Source: Parcubacteria group bacterium GW2011_GWA2_50_10b (lineage in GTDB: Bacteria > Patescibacteriota > Minisyncoccia > Phycocordibacterales > Zambryskibacteraceae). Taken from it: DNA of 21,125 nt. The DNA lies in the NCBI GenBank assembly GCA_001004085.1, contig LCQJ01000007.1:1-21125 (forward strand), read 5' to 3'. The notes below the pieces were generated by a model that did not search any database, was not told the origin of the DNA, and saw nothing but the letters and a program-made list of their open reading frames with translations. Positions 2,392 through 20,539 of this stretch are shown here, in pieces (position 1 is the first letter of the stretch; each line of letters begins with the position of its first letter). A program made the translations under genes and the position numbers.

Positions 2392-3273
2392 TTACCGCAG
2401 CGGCTCGCGCAACGTACTGTATCGCAACAGCGCCCGAAGCGCTTGGTCAACGGCAAAAATGGCGTAGAAGAGAGGAAAAAACGCCGGATAATGCTTTCTA
2501 AAATAAAACTTGATACTGCGGTTGTACACGCGCCGCCGCCAAGAACTGTCCCTCCTGCCGTAAGAGGTTGATTTAAGATGGGTCGCTACGGCGTCCGGAA
2601 CGAGATATATCTTATATCCGAGGTCATAGAGCCGTTTGCACATGTCTACATCCGTAAACTGAAACGCGAGCCTTGGGTCAATAATACAGTCGCCGACCGC
2701 GGCCCTCCTCCATATGAGGCACGGTATAGCCGGCTGCTCTATTTCGCAGACGCGGCTTACATCCAATCCGTCGTACCGGTAGCGTTTAAAGTAGCGCAAC
2801 CCGAGCAGATACTTATCGATAATTCTTCCAATAAGGGTGGTAAAAAAGAAAAATGCCGGCGTCATTATCCGGCGATAATACATCTGCGCCGAGCCGTCCT
2901 TATTGCGCAAATTTGCGGTAGCGGCACCGGCATTTGGAGTGCTGTCCATAAATGCAACCAGAGCCTGCATGGCGCCCGTGTGGAGCACTGCATCCGGGTC
3001 GAGGGTCAATATATATCTTCCTTTTGTCTCAAGCATTATATTTACCGTTGCCCACCCGGCATTTTTTTCGTTCTGCACAAACCTAAACCGCGCGTCACTT
3101 TTGTACACAGAATCAACGCGAGAAAATCCGCCATCAGACGACGCATTATCAATAACCGTCACCTCTATTTTCAAATCACCCGCGGTAGACGCTATAGAGC
3201 GGAGCGCGCCATTAAGCAGGTCAGAGGTGTTGTAATTTAAAACAACAATGGAAATATCAGATTTTTCTTTCAT
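2392..3273 (-). CDS. GT2 family glycosyltransferase (rhamnosyltransferase/WbbL-like)
   Basis: A 293-residue GT-A fold transferase. Visible motifs, in order: ISIVVLNYNTSDLL near the N-terminus; VIDNASSDGGF (nucleotide site); NEKNAGW; LTLDPDA (metal-binding DXD-type site); and FTDVDMCKRLYDLGYKIYLV then H, the late signature of WbbL-type enzymes. The order and spacing match the family. The usual GAFLLIRR segment is replaced by PCLIWRRAAVG, so the acceptor pocket may differ. A basic, aromatic C-terminus could sit against the membrane. The start overlaps the end of the upstream nucleotidyltransferase by 17 bp, which suggests translational coupling. Beside Rml-type genes, transfer of an NDP-deoxysugar is the natural guess, but the donor is unproven. 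Confidence 0.85.
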   Translation of the reverse strand: MKEKSDISIVVLNYNTSDLLNGALRSIASTAGDLKIEVTVIDNASSDGGFSRVDSVYKSDARFRFVQNEKNAGWATVNIMLETKGRYILTLDPDAVLHTGAMQALVAFMDSTPNAGAATANLRNKDGSAQMYYRRIMTPAFFFFTTLIGRIIDKYLLGLRYFKRYRYDGLDVSRVCEIEQPAIPCLIWRRAAVGDCIIDPRLAFQFTDVDMCKRLYDLGYKIYLVPDAVATHLKSTSYGRRDSSWRRRVYNRSIKFYFRKHYPAFFPLFYAIFAVDQALRALLRYSTLREPLR

Positions 3274-4006
3274 TGTTTGACTTTTTCCTCATAAATACCG
3301 ACGCTTCGTGGAGGCTATGTATGGTACCGATATCAAACCATTCTTTTTTTAGAACATGCGAGTTCAGAGTACCTTCCTTAATATACAAATTGTTCAAATC
3401 AGTAATCTCATATTCGCCCCTTTTGCTCTTTGGGATCTGCCGGATCTTTTTAAAAACAGTGTTGTCATAAATATAGAGCCCAGTGACCGCGAGATTGCTT
3501 TTAGGCTTTACCGGTTTTTCTTCGATACCAGTTACCTTACCCTTGCTATCGATGGTTGCAACGCCAAACCGCTCCGGATCACGGACTTTCTTCAAAAAGA
3601 CCGACGCGCCTTTTTTGAATTTCTTTATAGAGGGAGCGATGTTATCCATAATGATATTATCTCCGAGGAACAACACACAGTTATCATTACCTATATAATC
3701 CTCGGCAAAGTACAGTCCGTGGGCAATGCCGCTTGGTTCGTTTTGTATTGCATACACTATCTGTATCTGTTTCCCTTTTTTTGTTCTAGACCTGAAATGC
3801 TGTCCGGAGCCGAGAAGCTTCACGAATGAGTCGATATGGTGCGGCGACGTTACAATCATGATTTTTGATATACCGGCATCAACCAGTTTTTCAATAGCGT
3901 GATAAATCACCGGCTTATCAAACACAGGCAATAGGTGCTTGTTTACAGCAAGAGTCAACGGGTGAAGCCTGGTACCGGTGCCGCCGGCTAAAATAACCGC
4001 TTTCAT
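3257..4006 (-). CDS. rmlA: Sugar-1-phosphate nucleotidyltransferase (RmlA-like)
   Basis: 249 residues, opening with MKAVILAGGTGTRLHPLT, the nucleotide-binding signature of the RmlA/GlmU nucleotidyltransferase fold. Other marks: HLLPVFDKPVIYHA, GIAHGLYFAEDYIG, LFLGDNIIMD (metal site), PERFGVATID, IEEKP, and GEYEITDLNN near residue 200. It is about 40 residues shorter than typical RmlA (about 290) and lacks the C-terminal dimerisation extension, like the short RmlA class. It most likely condenses glucose-1-phosphate with dTTP to feed the RmlB/C/D-like enzymes nearby, though short-class enzymes can use other sugars. ATG at 4006 overlaps the upstream stop as ATGA. Confidence 0.85.
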   Translation of the reverse strand: MKAVILAGGTGTRLHPLTLAVNKHLLPVFDKPVIYHAIEKLVDAGISKIMIVTSPHHIDSFVKLLGSGQHFRSRTKKGKQIQIVYAIQNEPSGIAHGLYFAEDYIGNDNCVLFLGDNIIMDNIAPSIKKFKKGASVFLKKVRDPERFGVATIDSKGKVTGIEEKPVKPKSNLAVTGLYIYDNTVFKKIRQIPKSKRGEYEITDLNNLYIKEGTLNSHVLKKEWFDIGTIHSLHEASVFMRKKSNNERKI

Positions 4007-6247: not shown

Positions 6248-7153
6248 CTAGATATGCGCGTTTGCCACACCTGCGCGTTTAAGCGCGCGCTTAACCCATG
6301 AGCCATTCTTTAGGTACCATTCGACTGTCATCTTGAATGATTTATTTAGGTAGTGTCTTGGCTTCCATCCGAGAGCTTTCCGCGCCTTTGAAGCGTCTAT
6401 GGCATATCGGCGGTCATGGCCGGGGCGGTCTTTTACGTAAAGAACGTCCGACTCGCTTTTTTTAAAATACGCCAGCATTCTGCGCGCGAGCGCGATATTG
6501 CTCACTTCGTCATCGGCGCCGATATTGTAAACTTCTCCTGGCTCTCCGCGCAGTAATGCGAGTACAAGCGCCGAGCAATGGTCGTCTACATGAATCCAGT
6601 CGCGCACATAGAGCCCGTCGCCGTATATCGCTATCGGCTTTCCTTCCATAAGATCAGCGGCGGCTTTGGACGAGGCGTATGGCGAGTTGGGCAGTAGGGG
6701 CGAGGTTTCGGTAAATTTCTTTTTTGAGTGCAGAGGCAGGGCGCCGTAGACCTCGTCGGTGCTTACTTGTACGAATTTTTTGAGCGACTTCGCATCCCGG
6801 AGCGCGCCGAGCAATACCGCGGTGCCCAGCACATTGGTCCGGACAAACTCCTCCGCATTGCCATGGATGCTCCTATCTACATGAGACTCCGCCGCAAAGT
6901 TGATACCGTATGACGGCTTATATTTTTTGACCAGTCGCGCCATAAGCGCTTTGTTGGCTATGTCGCCCTTGATAAAAATAAGGCGTCTTGCGGGCAAGCC
7001 CTTGAGATTCTCTTTATTACCGGCATAAGTAAGCGCATCAACGCACACGACCCTCGCTTTTGGATGCCCAGCGAGCAGCTGCCGAATAAAATTGGAGCCT
7101 ATAAACCCGGCTCCACCGCACACTACAATGGTTGACCTGCCAAAACTTTGCAT
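6248..7153 (-). CDS. rmlB: dTDP-glucose 4,6-dehydratase (RmlB-like) lacking an internal block of about 39 residues
   Basis: 301 residues against about 340 usual. Nearly all RmlB motifs are present: GGAGFIG (residues 13-19), VDALTYAGN, AESHVDRSI, STDEVYG with catalytic T132-D133-E134, Y159-xxx-K163, then YGDGLYVRDWIHVDDHC and RPGHDRRYAID. At residues 168/169 (DNA 6649/6650) the text passes directly from SSKAAADL to MEGKP. RmlB normally has about 39 residues here, including a beta strand and the SNNYGPYQFPEKLIP loop that helps hold the nucleotide sugar. The frame is kept, so the deletion is close to 117 bp. A protein without this strand is unlikely to fold or work. Alternatives are an assembly loss or a decaying gene. 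ATG 7153 is 40 bp after the TylF-like stop. Confidence 0.88.
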   Translation of the reverse strand: MQSFGRSTIVVCGGAGFIGSNFIRQLLAGHPKARVVCVDALTYAGNKENLKGLPARRLIFIKGDIANKALMARLVKKYKPSYGINFAAESHVDRSIHGNAEEFVRTNVLGTAVLLGALRDAKSLKKFVQVSTDEVYGALPLHSKKKFTETSPLLPNSPYASSKAAADLMEGKPIAIYGDGLYVRDWIHVDDHCSALVLALLRGEPGEVYNIGADDEVSNIALARRMLAYFKKSESDVLYVKDRPGHDRRYAIDASKARKALGWKPRHYLNKSFKMTVEWYLKNGSWVKRALKRAGVANAHI

Positions 7154-8003: not shown

Positions 8004-8030
8004 ATTATAGTATTGTACCTGCATCTTCTC
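8004..8030. promoter_or_regulatory. 27-bp divergent spacer with -10-like hexamers
   Basis: This AT-rich spacer separates the divergent TylF-like and RmlC-like genes, so at least one promoter of each unit should lie here or in the adjoining 5' coding ends. Seen: TATAAT on the minus strand at 8009-8004, directly against the TylF-like ATG, and TATTAT/TATAGT on the plus strand at 8003-8011. No convincing -35 box is found at the right distance for either. No Shine-Dalgarno precedes either start, so very short leaders or leaderless starts are possible. Confidence 0.3.
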
Positions 8031-8672
8031 ATGAAAATACTGTCTGTTAAAACCTTGGCTCTGCCCGAAATAAAGACTGTGCAGTTTGCCTTATTTAAGG
8101 ACAATCGCGGATACTTTACCGAGAGCTTCCGCAAGAGCGACCTCGCTGCACACCCCGCGCTCGCGCCACTTGCCGGCACCGAGTTTGTACAACAAAACGA
8201 GAGTTACTCGCTCCCGCACACGTTGCGCGGACTCCATTTCCAGTGGAATCCGTATATGGGCAAACTCATCCGCGTACTGTTTGGGCACATGATAGACATA
8301 GTCGCGGATATCCGTGTGGGCTCACCCACATTTGGTAAAGCAATTTTGTACGACATGCGACACAGCCCCGCGGCAGAGAGCGGCGAGTGGATTTGGGTGC
8401 CGCCCGGCTTTACTCACGGCAATTTATTTTTGGAACCTACGGCGATTGAGTACCTTTGCACCGGTGAGTACAGCCAAGGCTGCGAAGCGGGCATCTCCCC
8501 GCTCGCCCCCGACCTCGATTGGACCTTGGCCGACAAAACACTTAAGGCAACTTTTGACACGACTGTGGCATCTCCGGCATTGATTATTACCGAAAAAGAC
8601 CGCATGGGACTGGGCGTAAAAAACTGGGCCGCCGATGCGCGCTCGGGCAATTTTATATATGGCAAAGTTTAA
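8031..8672 (+). CDS. rmlC: dTDP-4-dehydrorhamnose 3,5-epimerase-like cupin (RmlC-like)
   Basis: 213 residues from ATG 8031 (a TTG 18 bp upstream is an unnecessary alternative). The RmlC cupin signature is plain: FKDNRGYFTESF, FVQQNESYS, TLRGLHFQWNP (catalytic-type His69), K78, DIVADIRVGSPTFG, WVPPGFTHG, then IEYLCTGEYS with a Tyr (Y141) that lines up with the RmlC catalytic Tyr, and APDLDW. RmlC epimerises C3 and C5 of the dTDP-4-keto-6-deoxy sugar produced by RmlB. It is about 30 residues longer than usual at the C-terminus, with a divergent WAADARSGNFIYGKV tail. The usual acidic residue of the pair is less clear, so C3-only epimerisation or another 4-keto sugar is possible. Its last 14 bp overlap the next gene. 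Confidence 0.85.
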   Translation: MKILSVKTLALPEIKTVQFALFKDNRGYFTESFRKSDLAAHPALAPLAGTEFVQQNESYSLPHTLRGLHFQWNPYMGKLIRVLFGHMIDIVADIRVGSPTFGKAILYDMRHSPAAESGEWIWVPPGFTHGNLFLEPTAIEYLCTGEYSQGCEAGISPLAPDLDWTLADKTLKATFDTTVASPALIITEKDRMGLGVKNWAADARSGNFIYGKV

Positions 8673-17358: not shown

Positions 17359-17957
17359 TTAGTGTACCCGCATTAGTCTTTTTGGTAAAAACCGATTATG
17401 CAGGCCGACGCGGATGTATGCTAGCAGGTCTTTAGACTTGGCGCGTCCGGTAGAGGATTTGCGCGTTATAAAAATCTCCCACGGCGCGTCTACCTCGGCA
17501 ATGCGGTAGCCGAGCCGCAAGGGTTTTAACATCGTTTCAAAAAAGAACGGATGCCTCGGCTCCTCCCAGCGGATGCTTTTGACAACCTCGGTGCGGAATG
17601 CGCGGTAGCCGTAGGTCAGGTCGCTCAGACGCGTGAGATATATAACACGGAAAACCTGCTGGAACAAAAAGTTAAGCGTCATTTTTACCGGATTGTATCC
17701 GTTGAGCGCAAACCCCTTCCGCCAGCGTGTGGCGGTCGCCATGTCATAGCCCTCCTCAAGTTTTTTAATTCAATCTTATTGCCGTAGCGCGCCACAAGCT
17801 CAGCAATCGCTGTCCTGGTCTCACGCGTCGTAAGACGAGCCGAGGCGGCGATAACGACCCGCAGGTCGTGGCCCTGTAATTTCTCAAAAACCGCCCTGAC
17901 CGTCTCCGTCAAGAGCGGTCCCTCGTCAAGCGTCGGCAATACGACAGTTACACGCAT
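17359..17957 (-). pseudogene. DPM1/GtrB-like GT2 polyprenyl-phosphate glycosyltransferase, internally deleted and frame-broken
   Basis: The N-terminal part starts at ATG 17957 (MRVTVVLPTLDEGPLL) and is in the right frame as far as about 17765. The C-terminal part is in another frame (17742-17359): GYDMATATRWRKG, NGYNPVKMTLNFLFQQ, LSDLTYGYRAFRTEVV, HPFFFETMLKPLRLGYRIAEV, a full match to the second half of this family. Besides the frame change, about 40-45 residues are missing, including the G-G-A loop and the 'M.sDlET.P' metal-binding site, so the loss is near 120-135 bp. Even with the frames joined, the product would lack its catalytic metal site. Members charge polyprenyl phosphate with a sugar. 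An AGGAGG at 17756-17751 sits 8 nt before ATG 17742 and could start the C-terminal piece alone. Confidence 0.85.
17760..17766 (-). other. A AAA AAC slippery heptamer at the GT2 frame break
   Basis: In the N-terminal frame of the broken GT2 gene the codons read TTA AAA AAC, giving A AAA AAC in the exact X XXY YYZ phase. A -1 slip makes the next codon CTT at 17760 and enters the C-terminal frame as L-E-E-G-Y-D-M, the family text. A 6-A run is also a common site of sequencing error. No clear downstream hairpin was identified. Because about 40 residues of the domain are also missing, programmed frameshifting is only one reading. Confidence 0.4.
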
Positions 17958-17986: not shown

Positions 17987-18448
17987 ATGAACGACAAGCT
18001 CATATCTATGCCCGAATTTGCGACACGCGCCATTTATAGAGCCTCGCGCTCTCGCATCATGCGGGTGGCGTTTTTTGGCGGGTTCGGCGTTATTGTCCAG
18101 ACTATTGTTTTTGAGATTGTGGGGATTTGGCTCGGGCTCCTGCGCCCGTCGCTCGCCACTTTGTTGGGAGCCGAGTTCGGCATTATCACGAACTTCTTTC
18201 TCAATAACCGGTTTTCGTTTAACGACCGTACGCACGCGCCGCTGCCTATGCGCTTGCTGCGATTTCATGCGGTGGTGTCAGGCTCGCTTTTTATACAGTG
18301 GCTGTGCGTGTTTACCGCGGAGTCGCTTACCGCAAATACTTGGGTGATACACGGCGCCTATGCGGGAGGTATTTTGCTCGGGTTTATCTCCAACTACACC
18401 GGCTACCGGCTCTGGGTGTGGAAGCATCACGAAGAGCCTGCAGTATAA
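17987..18448 (+). CDS. gtrA: GtrA-like polyprenyl-phosphate-sugar flippase
   Basis: 153 residues with the GtrA layout: a short basic N-terminus (ATRAIYRASRSRIMRVAFFG), then four hydrophobic helices at about residues 33-50, 55-75, 95-113 and 123-140. The family mark FGIITNFFLNNRFSF is at residues 64-78 between helices 2 and 3, and the end reads ISNYTGYRLWVWK. GtrA proteins are thought to flip polyprenyl-phosphate-linked sugars across the membrane for a GT-C transferase. It is divergent from the broken GT2 gene with only 29 bp between starts, and it converges on the PLP-enzyme gene with a 22-bp overlap. Its promoter must lie mainly in the GT2 5' end; no good match was found. Confidence 0.85.
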   Translation: MNDKLISMPEFATRAIYRASRSRIMRVAFFGGFGVIVQTIVFEIVGIWLGLLRPSLATLLGAEFGIITNFFLNNRFSFNDRTHAPLPMRLLRFHAVVSGSLFIQWLCVFTAESLTANTWVIHGAYAGGILLGFISNYTGYRLWVWKHHEEPAV

Positions 18449-19546
18449 AAGAACTCCATAAACACCGAGACAATACGCTCGCGGTCTTTTGGCGTGAGCA
18501 TTTGGTGCGAGCCGATGTAAAAGCCGTTGTTGTTAATCCACTTAGCGACAGGGTACTGCGCCTCGAGGTCGCCGTACAGCTCTTTATAAAACGGCTGGTT
18601 GATAAGCGGAAGCATGTCGCGGGTTTCGATGTTGTGCTCCTCGAGATACTGGACCATGTCGGCTTTCTGTATTGGTGAAGATTTTTTAATAACAATCGGG
18701 TACATCATAAACACATGCTCCGCGCCGGGAGCGGTCGTCGGCAACTGAAGATGCCCGCCAAACTGAGCGAGATGTTTGTTAAAATACGCGCCGTTTTCCT
18801 TGCGTTTTGCGATGGTCGCTTCATACCGCTCCAGCTGCGCGCAGCCCAGCGCCCCCTCCATCTCGGTGACGCGGTAGCTGTATCCCCTGCGGATAAAATT
18901 AAACCTCCGGGAAATGATTTCTTTAAGGTCTTGGCCCTTCGCCTCTTTGCCGTCGTCAATCGAAATGTAAATATTGTCCCGCCCGTGGTTGGCGAGGCTG
19001 CGCAGGCGCTCCGCGAGCACCGGGTTGTTGGTCATGGCGATGCCTCCAACCCCCGTCACCAAAATATGCGCCACGTAGGTCGAAAAGCATGCGATATCGC
19101 TCATAACGCCGACCGAGGTCCCCTTATATTTTGCAAACATCGTCTCGCACCGGGTCGATATTGTAAGTCTGCGCGTCTATGTCTACAAAAACAGGCTTTA
19201 GATTATTAGCCAAAATAACGTTGCTTGAGGCGACAAAGGTGACCGCCGGACACAGTATCTCATCATTGTCCCGCCAACCGTGCACCTCTTTGAGGCAAGC
19301 GACCGCCATCTCAAGCGCCGAGGTACCGCTGTTAACCATGATTGCGAAGCGCGCGTCGTGCGCCGCAGCGAACTCACGCTCGAAGCGTTTGATAAACGGA
19401 CCTTGAGAGAGGCGGCCAGACTCGAGCACCTCGTTTACATAGCGCTTTTCTATATCGGTGATTTCGAGACACCCGACACCTATTTGCGTATCAATTTTTG
19501 ATGCTTTTGGCTGTATGGTTACTTTTGAAAGCTCACTGTCCATCAT
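18427..19546 (-). pseudogene. DegT-fold PLP enzyme with His in place of the catalytic Lys (ColD/RfbH-like), internally deleted and frame-broken
   Basis: The N-terminal part is in frame with Gmd and begins about ATG 19546/19543 (GGAG at 19553-19550 lies just upstream): IDTQIGVGCLEITD, GRLSQGPFIKRFE, VNSGTSALEMAV (PLP phosphate loop), ILCPAVTFVASSN and FVDIDAQTYNIDP. The rest is in another frame from CETM at 19149: FAKYKGTSVG, FSTYVAHILVTGVGGIAM, NHGRDN, YRVTEMEGALGCAQLERYE, VFMMYPIVI, and IETRDMLPL to the end. The usual S-F-x-x-x-K-x-L-x-x-G-x-G-G lysine is His (19068-19066), as in ColD and RfbH 3-dehydratases. About 45 residues (about 134 bp) are missing at the break, including the Asp before S-C-E-T-M that binds the pyridine nitrogen, so the gene as written cannot be functional. 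Confidence 0.82.
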
Positions 19547-20539
19547 AATCTCCACAAGTTTTGTAAAGGTAGTGCGCGGTTTCCATCCGAACGACACAAA
19601 GGCCTTGCCGGCGTCGCCGCATAGATAATCCACTTCGTTGGGGCGAAAATATTCCGGGTCAATTTTTACCAGCGTCTTGCCGCTTGCCGCGTCAATACCG
19701 ACCTCATCGGCTCCGGCACCCTCCCACCGGAGAGTGATGCCGGCGCGCGCGAAAGCCGCTTCGGCAAATTCGCGCACGGTATGAGTCTCGCCCGTGGCTA
19801 TGACGAAGTCTCCCGGTGTTTGCTGCTGAAGCATTTCCCACGCAGCCTCCATATACTCCGGCGCGTAGCCCCAGTCGCGGGAGGCGTCAAGATTGCCGAG
19901 CTCAATATACCCGCGCTTCCCCGCCGCAACCTCGGCGACGCCGTGGACTATCTTGCGGGTTACGAAGTTCATTCCGCGCCGCGGCGACTCGTGGTTAAAA
20001 AGAATGCCGTTGACGACAAACATGCCGTAGCTCTCGCGGTACACCCGCGCTATTTCAAACGCGTAGAGCTTGGCAACTCCGTATGGACTGCGCGGATGAA
20101 ACGGCGTGCGCTCGTTCTGCGGAGCCTCTTTTCTGTCCCCGCTGTACAGCTCGGAGGTGGACGCCTGATAGATTTTTGAATTGAGACCCAACAGCCGCAC
20201 GGCTTCGAGCAGCGAGAGTACGCCGAGCGCGTCGGCTTGCGCGGTGTAGGACGGCACCTCGAAGGATATTTTGACGTGCGACTGCGCCGCGAGGTTGTAT
20301 ATCTCATCGGGCTGCACTTTTTTTAAAATAGACATGAGGGAGTTCATGTCGGCCATGTCGCCGTAATGCAAGTGCCGGTGGCGCCCGGTATCGGTGGTAA
20401 AAATATGGTCGATATTGTGCCGGTTAAAGGTGCTCGAGCGGCGCACGAGGCCGTGCACCTCGTACCCCTTTTTAATAAGCAGCTCCGCCAAATAGGAGCC
20501 GTCCTGGCCGGTAATGCCGGTAATAAGGGCTTTTTTCAT
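19124..20539 (-). CDS. gmd: GDP-mannose 4,6-dehydratase, open frame running into the PLP-enzyme gene
   Basis: Residues 1-336 are a complete Gmd: ALITGITGQDGSYLAE (NADP binding), VRRSSTFN, LHYGDMADMNSL, AAQSHVKISFE, ASTSELYSG, PRSPYGVAKLYAFEI (Y-xxx-K), VNGILFNHESPRRG, FVTRKI, LGNLDASRDWGYAPEY, VKIDPEYFRPNEVDYL and GDAGKAFVSFGWKPRT. It converts GDP-mannose to GDP-4-keto-6-deoxymannose. No stop follows the usual Gmd end (TKLVEIMMDSEL): the frame continues for about 135 residues into the N-terminal part of the DegT-fold enzyme and stops at 19124, where that gene's frame breaks. This is either a true fusion, an overlap with an internal start at 19543, or a further lost segment. It is the first gene of a leftward unit, with a promoter candidate at 20588-20560. 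Confidence 0.9.
   Translation of the reverse strand: MKKALITGITGQDGSYLAELLIKKGYEVHGLVRRSSTFNRHNIDHIFTTDTGRHRHLHYGDMADMNSLMSILKKVQPDEIYNLAAQSHVKISFEVPSYTAQADALGVLSLLEAVRLLGLNSKIYQASTSELYSGDRKEAPQNERTPFHPRSPYGVAKLYAFEIARVYRESYGMFVVNGILFNHESPRRGMNFVTRKIVHGVAEVAAGKRGYIELGNLDASRDWGYAPEYMEAAWEMLQQQTPGDFVIATGETHTVREFAEAAFARAGITLRWEGAGADEVGIDAASGKTLVKIDPEYFRPNEVDYLCGDAGKAFVSFGWKPRTTFTKLVEIMMDSELSKVTIQPKASKIDTQIGVGCLEITDIEKRYVNEVLESGRLSQGPFIKRFEREFAAAHDARFAIMVNSGTSALEMAVACLKEVHGWRDNDEILCPAVTFVASSNVILANNLKPVFVDIDAQTYNIDPVRDDVCKI

Follow-up and report, generated by a model that had tools for sequence, protein, structure and literature searches.

Assembly loss very probably accounts for the 39 residues missing from an RmlB-like dehydratase in a Parcubacteria draft genome

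An RmlB-like gene in the window, by which we mean the whole stretch of 21,125 nucleotides from Parcubacteria group bacterium GW2011_GWA2_50_10b analysed here, lacks an internal block of coding sequence and nevertheless keeps its reading frame, which raises the question of whether this organism carries a damaged or a novel dTDP-glucose 4,6-dehydratase or whether a piece of the gene is missing from the draft. The comparisons reported below make it highly probable that the contig as assembled lacks 117 nt which the organism itself possesses, the gap in RmlB being an artefact of assembly. The 301-residue frame contains no internal stops, and the solved relatives that match it best by sequence are dTDP-glucose 4,6-dehydratases (6bi4, 2hun and 1r66), aligned as two stretches separated by a gap. 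The family model TIGR01181 (dTDP-glucose 4,6-dehydratase) also matches the protein in two stretches, at 331.9 bits and thus below its curated cut-off of 365.1; the public 340-residue protein P0001 matches the same model in one stretch, at 425.1 bits and above the cut-off. The short protein has in common with this family the Gly-rich NAD motif, the TDE and YxxxK motifs and the C-terminal part, but differs from it by the 39 missing residues and by its score. A 16-sequence alignment (A1) confirmed the earlier note's observation that TDE and YxxxK, which we take to be the catalytic motifs, are retained: T132, D133, E134, Y159 and K163 are invariant, as is the GxxGxxG motif (GGAGFIG, residues 13-19), presumably the NAD motif of RmlB. 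Absent from the 301-residue protein are the strand and the substrate loop that follow the YxxxK helix.

Coordinates of the genes and junctions discussed in the text (positions without a locus name are those of the window)
Feature	Position	Strand	Sequence missing or state of the frame	Basis
RmlA-like glucose-1-phosphate thymidylyltransferase	3257..4006	-	single uninterrupted frame	best family below curated cut-off
RmlB-like dTDP-glucose 4,6-dehydratase gene, 301 aa	6248..7153	-	internal 39 residues missing	open reading frame and homolog comparison
Junction in the RmlB-like gene, cut after residue 167 or 168	6649..6653	-	117 nt missing	P0001 identical on both sides
RmlC-like dTDP-4-dehydrorhamnose 3,5-epimerase	8013..8672	+	single uninterrupted frame	below curated cut-off
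Short RmlD-like reductase, 249 aa	8635..9384	+		
Family 2 glycosyltransferase, two frames	17359..17957	-	127 nt missing near 17769/17770	
DegT/DnrJ/EryC1-type aminotransferase, two frames (about 19124-19498 and 18427-19149)	18427..19498	-	about 131 nt missing near 19149/19150	
GDP-mannose 4,6-dehydratase	19498..20539	-	runs in frame into the aminotransferase	
AsnB	L088 2750-4409		about 134 nt missing, frame broken	one reference genome
Class B penicillin-binding transpeptidase	L089 1080-2692		about 127 nt missing, frame broken	three references: 127, 127, 118
YbeY	L093 8218-8434		about 113 nt missing, frame broken	one reference genome
RuvB	L094 1213-2162		about 88 nt missing, frame broken	one reference genome

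An otherwise identical intact copy of the protein exists. P0001, the best match, is encoded on another contig, of 2,437 bases, and at the protein level, to which this identity refers, it contains all 301 residues of the window RmlB unchanged, plus a block of 39 residues; it is listed at 89% identity because the gap is counted. The match of P0001 residues 1-168 to the contig stops at 6650 and the cut falls between 6653 and 6649, which agrees with the position 6649/6650 that the earlier note had assigned to a single loss. That note had also estimated the loss, from 301 against about 340 residues, at about 39 residues in frame; comparison with the 340 residues of P0001 and with the 120 homologs listed out of 8000 scored puts the largest internal gap at exactly 39 residues, or 117 nt. 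Since the identity is exact on both sides of the cut, a chance gap can be excluded. The full block is found in 119 of the 120 listed homologs, the remaining one (P0111, 202 residues, on a contig of 1,071 bases) being a fragment that ends within the block and has 35 of its 39 residues, and it is complete in all 133 loci listed, 53 viral and 80 from genomes. In a search of 383 genomes of the class, 82 matched at 1e-90 or better, the genome under study included, and in each of the 81 others the match crosses the block, the lengths of query and subject differing by -12 to 7 residues. Homologs that are naturally short in this way, which the earlier note had named as evidence against a recent deletion, were thus encountered neither among the 120 listed homologs, nor among the 133 listed loci, nor in these genomes.

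Some of the public RmlB proteins P0001-P0007 are mosaics of one another. In P0007 the 5' part agrees with P0002 (166/167 residues), the block with P0001 (39/39) and the 3' part with P0003 (134/134), and long stretches identical to P0001 occur in P0003 (over 171-255) and in P0007 (over 151-255). These mosaics, close to the window RmlB, could have arisen by real recombination or by chimeric assembly, and that of P0007 could be a case of real recombination.

The short protein might conceivably work without the strand, the end of the helix and the substrate loop, in which case it would be the structurally novel dehydratase that the earlier note had envisaged; the preserved frame and the remaining TDE and YxxxK motifs speak in its favour. 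Structure models, both built from shallow alignments (21 and 22 sequences) and used here as supporting evidence, point the other way. In the model of P0001 (mean pLDDT 80.6), whose leading structural neighbours in the PDB include 2hun, 6bi4, 1keu and 1r66 with TM-scores near 0.8 and rmsd of 6-7 Å, the block comprises the second half of the YxxxK helix (158-177), a strand (181-186), a loop and most of the next helix (199-208). In the model of the 301-residue protein (mean pLDDT 71.6) the YxxxK helix is reduced to 163-168 and pLDDT drops below 50 over 133-143 and 145-169; over residues 131-170 its means are 32-44, compared with 62-88 in P0001, where the block means of 66, 64, 62 and 88 indicate that the region is partly weak in the intact form too. 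The poor model around the catalytic helix, together with the lack of a short form in the homologs, loci and genomes mentioned above and with the frame-breaking losses of the same kind in other genes described below, leaves a working short RmlB with a vanishingly small likelihood.

Two further genes within the window are split, both by losses that are out of frame. The first encodes the aminotransferase; residues 1-135 of P0122 match its first piece, starting within the tail of the preceding dehydratase, and residues 181-411 match the second, while the second piece, from 19149 on, is identical to P0121 over 240 residues, with P0121 continuing for 7 residues into the missing part. The other encodes the family 2 glycosyltransferase, which we presume to be dolichol-phosphate-mannose-synthase-like, and each of five relatives (P0241, P0242, P0243, P0245 and P0246) gives the same loss for it. 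Among its 101 homologs, 94 carry all 42 gap residues, one carries 40 and six short ones (137-166 residues) carry 1-30, and P0250 is identical to its second piece (136 residues), with 16 additional residues extending into the missing part. For these two genes the identical matches are therefore fragments, as against a whole intact copy for RmlB; nonetheless, identical fragments longer than the assembled pieces also favour a loss during assembly. The first residue of both P0121 and P0250 is a Leu, which looks like the edge of a contig and suggests that assemblies other than this one may have been interrupted within these blocks. P0122 and P0243 are unbroken; for both, the longest contig is given as 16,186 bases, perhaps the same one.

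Losses of this kind extend to the rest of the draft genome. We scanned the window and a sample of eight stretches from eight other contigs (132,518 bases) against open frames drawn from portions of 10 relatives; at 40% identity or more, 86,995 bases were covered. Four additional frame-breaking losses were found in this sample, in genes for AsnB, a class B penicillin-binding transpeptidase, YbeY and RuvB; Pfam families were assigned to both pieces of AsnB and to the first pieces of the other three, and Pfam returned no family for the second transpeptidase piece, the loss in this gene taking in what we presume to be the region of the KTG motif. In all, seven losses, of 88, 113, 117, 127, 127, 131 and 134 nt, were found in 153.6 kb, hitting unrelated genes regardless of frame, as six of the seven break it. 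Among losses that are blind to frame, the in-frame loss in RmlB is a one-in-three chance event. Over the 86,995 covered bases, the genome under study showed a single further frame change, affecting one base, which argues that its genes are not generally decaying. Gaps of 15-32 residues that keep the frame make up nine of the 13 clusters in this genome, and some of the genes concerned presumably resemble AlaRS, GltX or MltG; they were dropped as losses because the controls show such gaps too, although the one near 9954 of L088 (32 residues, one reference) could be a further loss.

As controls we used portions of eight other genomes, with 689,758 bases covered; they yielded 16 clusters, with no consistent frame-breaking loss longer than 55 nt among them, and one of the clusters, in G013, was self-contradictory, its values ranging from -91 to 98. 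A first version of the scan, on six controls (574,202 covered bases), returned a single frame-breaking loss of 15 residues or more, in G016 (18 residues); in G001 and G004 it also picked up four gaps, 84-175 residues long, that leave the frame unchanged and may represent domain differences. In-frame gaps of at least 15 residues were not commoner in the genome under study than in the controls, whose total clusters numbered 9, 12, 1, 7, 4 and 3, and counts of in-frame stops (21-70 clusters in every genome, probably from spurious frames) did not discriminate between genomes.

The gap in RmlB is thus far better explained by assembly than by biology, given the identical intact protein, six more out-of-frame losses of similar size and controls in which no consistent loss exceeds 55 nt. 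Of the two readings that the earlier note had offered, the dropping of sequence by the assembly is well supported, with P0001 and the six further losses behind it. A dead dehydratase whose route is fed from elsewhere is unsupported: the RmlA-, RmlC- and RmlD-like frames are uninterrupted, and no second rmlB was found in the genome (77.65% complete), where the weak matches at other places reach at most 36% identity. A related proposal is that a real in-frame deletion killed RmlB in one strain, the intact copy belonging to a sister strain and the sugar route being dead or supplied otherwise. Both the deleted and the intact forms are indeed present in the data, and the lack of a second rmlB would agree with a dead route, but the proposal requires six further losses, independent of one another and similar in size, in the AsnB, transpeptidase, YbeY, RuvB, aminotransferase and glycosyltransferase genes, in a genome with hardly any point frameshift elsewhere (the one single-base change), and nothing comparable was seen in the parts of the eight control genomes; we consider it improbable. 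Less probable still, and by our estimate very unlikely, is that the losses are real and reflect a process in the organism or its population that excises segments of about 90-135 bp from numerous genes, with no long repeats at their ends and both forms coexisting.

How an assembly loss would come about can be outlined from the junctions. At the sites of loss the assembler or scaffolder may have been unable to settle on a path, so that the two flanks would have been butted together and the piece with no settled path dropped. Such tangled paths are plausible at rmlB because its block lies within a stretch that two related public sequences, P0003 and the mosaic P0007, share with the intact copy, and the composition of P0007 is what such paths would lead one to expect. 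The nucleotides shared at the RmlB cut, as deduced from the flanking residues of P0001, number about four at most, which places the loss outside a long repeat and argues against a collapsed repeat. Direct repeats of at least 8 nt were absent from the 121-base stretches at the three window junctions, but that search is blind to a copy within the lost piece and so carries little weight. The three junctions in the window (RmlB, glycosyltransferase and aminotransferase) contain no N. Scaffolding gaps do occur in this assembly, since the sampled contigs contain one run of N, of 91 bases (L093 1264-1354), at which a frame that we take to be gyrase/topoisomerase-like ends. The idea that one constant length, for instance that of a k-mer, was lost each time was considered and rejected, as the sizes of 88-134 nt are close without being equal, and no single assembler parameter would therefore explain them. 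Within the artefact, the joins might alternatively be chimeras generated by whole-genome amplification of single cells and not by the assembler; template switching would allow for the few nucleotides shared at the RmlB cut, but such chimeras would need to prevail among the reads at no fewer than seven sites, and we regard this variant as unlikely.

For local assembly errors we refer to PMC7111523, which we take to be Chen et al. 2020. In the passages of that paper considered here, such errors are described as a general problem of metagenome-assembled genomes that leads to incomplete or incorrect protein genes, with 13 of them in one CPR case (PMC7111523). The losses reported here resemble them in being short internal errors that spoil protein genes, a small CPR genome being among the published cases, but their size class of 88-134 nt, with no N at the joins in the window, is not described in those passages (PMC7111523).

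Among the neighbouring nucleotide-sugar genes, the RmlD-like one was considered as a further truncated gene and rejected, its short form being natural: RmlD-like open frames in eight other matched genomes, of 365 others searched, have 234-248 residues. On the minus strand, 19124-20539 holds the GDP-mannose 4,6-dehydratase and the DegT-type aminotransferase in one frame. Of 366 genomes, 74 others gave a match, and in all of these it stops at or before residue 368 of the 471-residue query. G212 has a long open frame that was considered as the same fusion and rejected because a separate aminotransferase gene of 409 residues adjoins the dehydratase there, and G105 yielded no frame of at least 400 residues. 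The N-terminus of P0122 resembles the tail of GDP-mannose 4,6-dehydratase, and the two enzymes may be naturally fused in this lineage or may have been brought together by a further assembly join.

Our findings carry a warning for the drafts of uncultured bacteria, in which clean in-frame internal losses can occur and mimic novel forms of an enzyme. Where losses fall without regard to frame, one third of them will keep it and escape gene callers. A cheap test that dispenses with reads is to search for an identical protein with the missing piece and to tally the frame-breaking losses that affect housekeeping genes in that assembly. As for the organism itself, the locus would harbour the ordinary RmlB gene of a bacterium with a small genome, a patescibacterium to judge from what its relatives are called, and the cell would make a normal RmlB of 340 residues that feeds the neighbouring RmlC- and RmlD-like steps.
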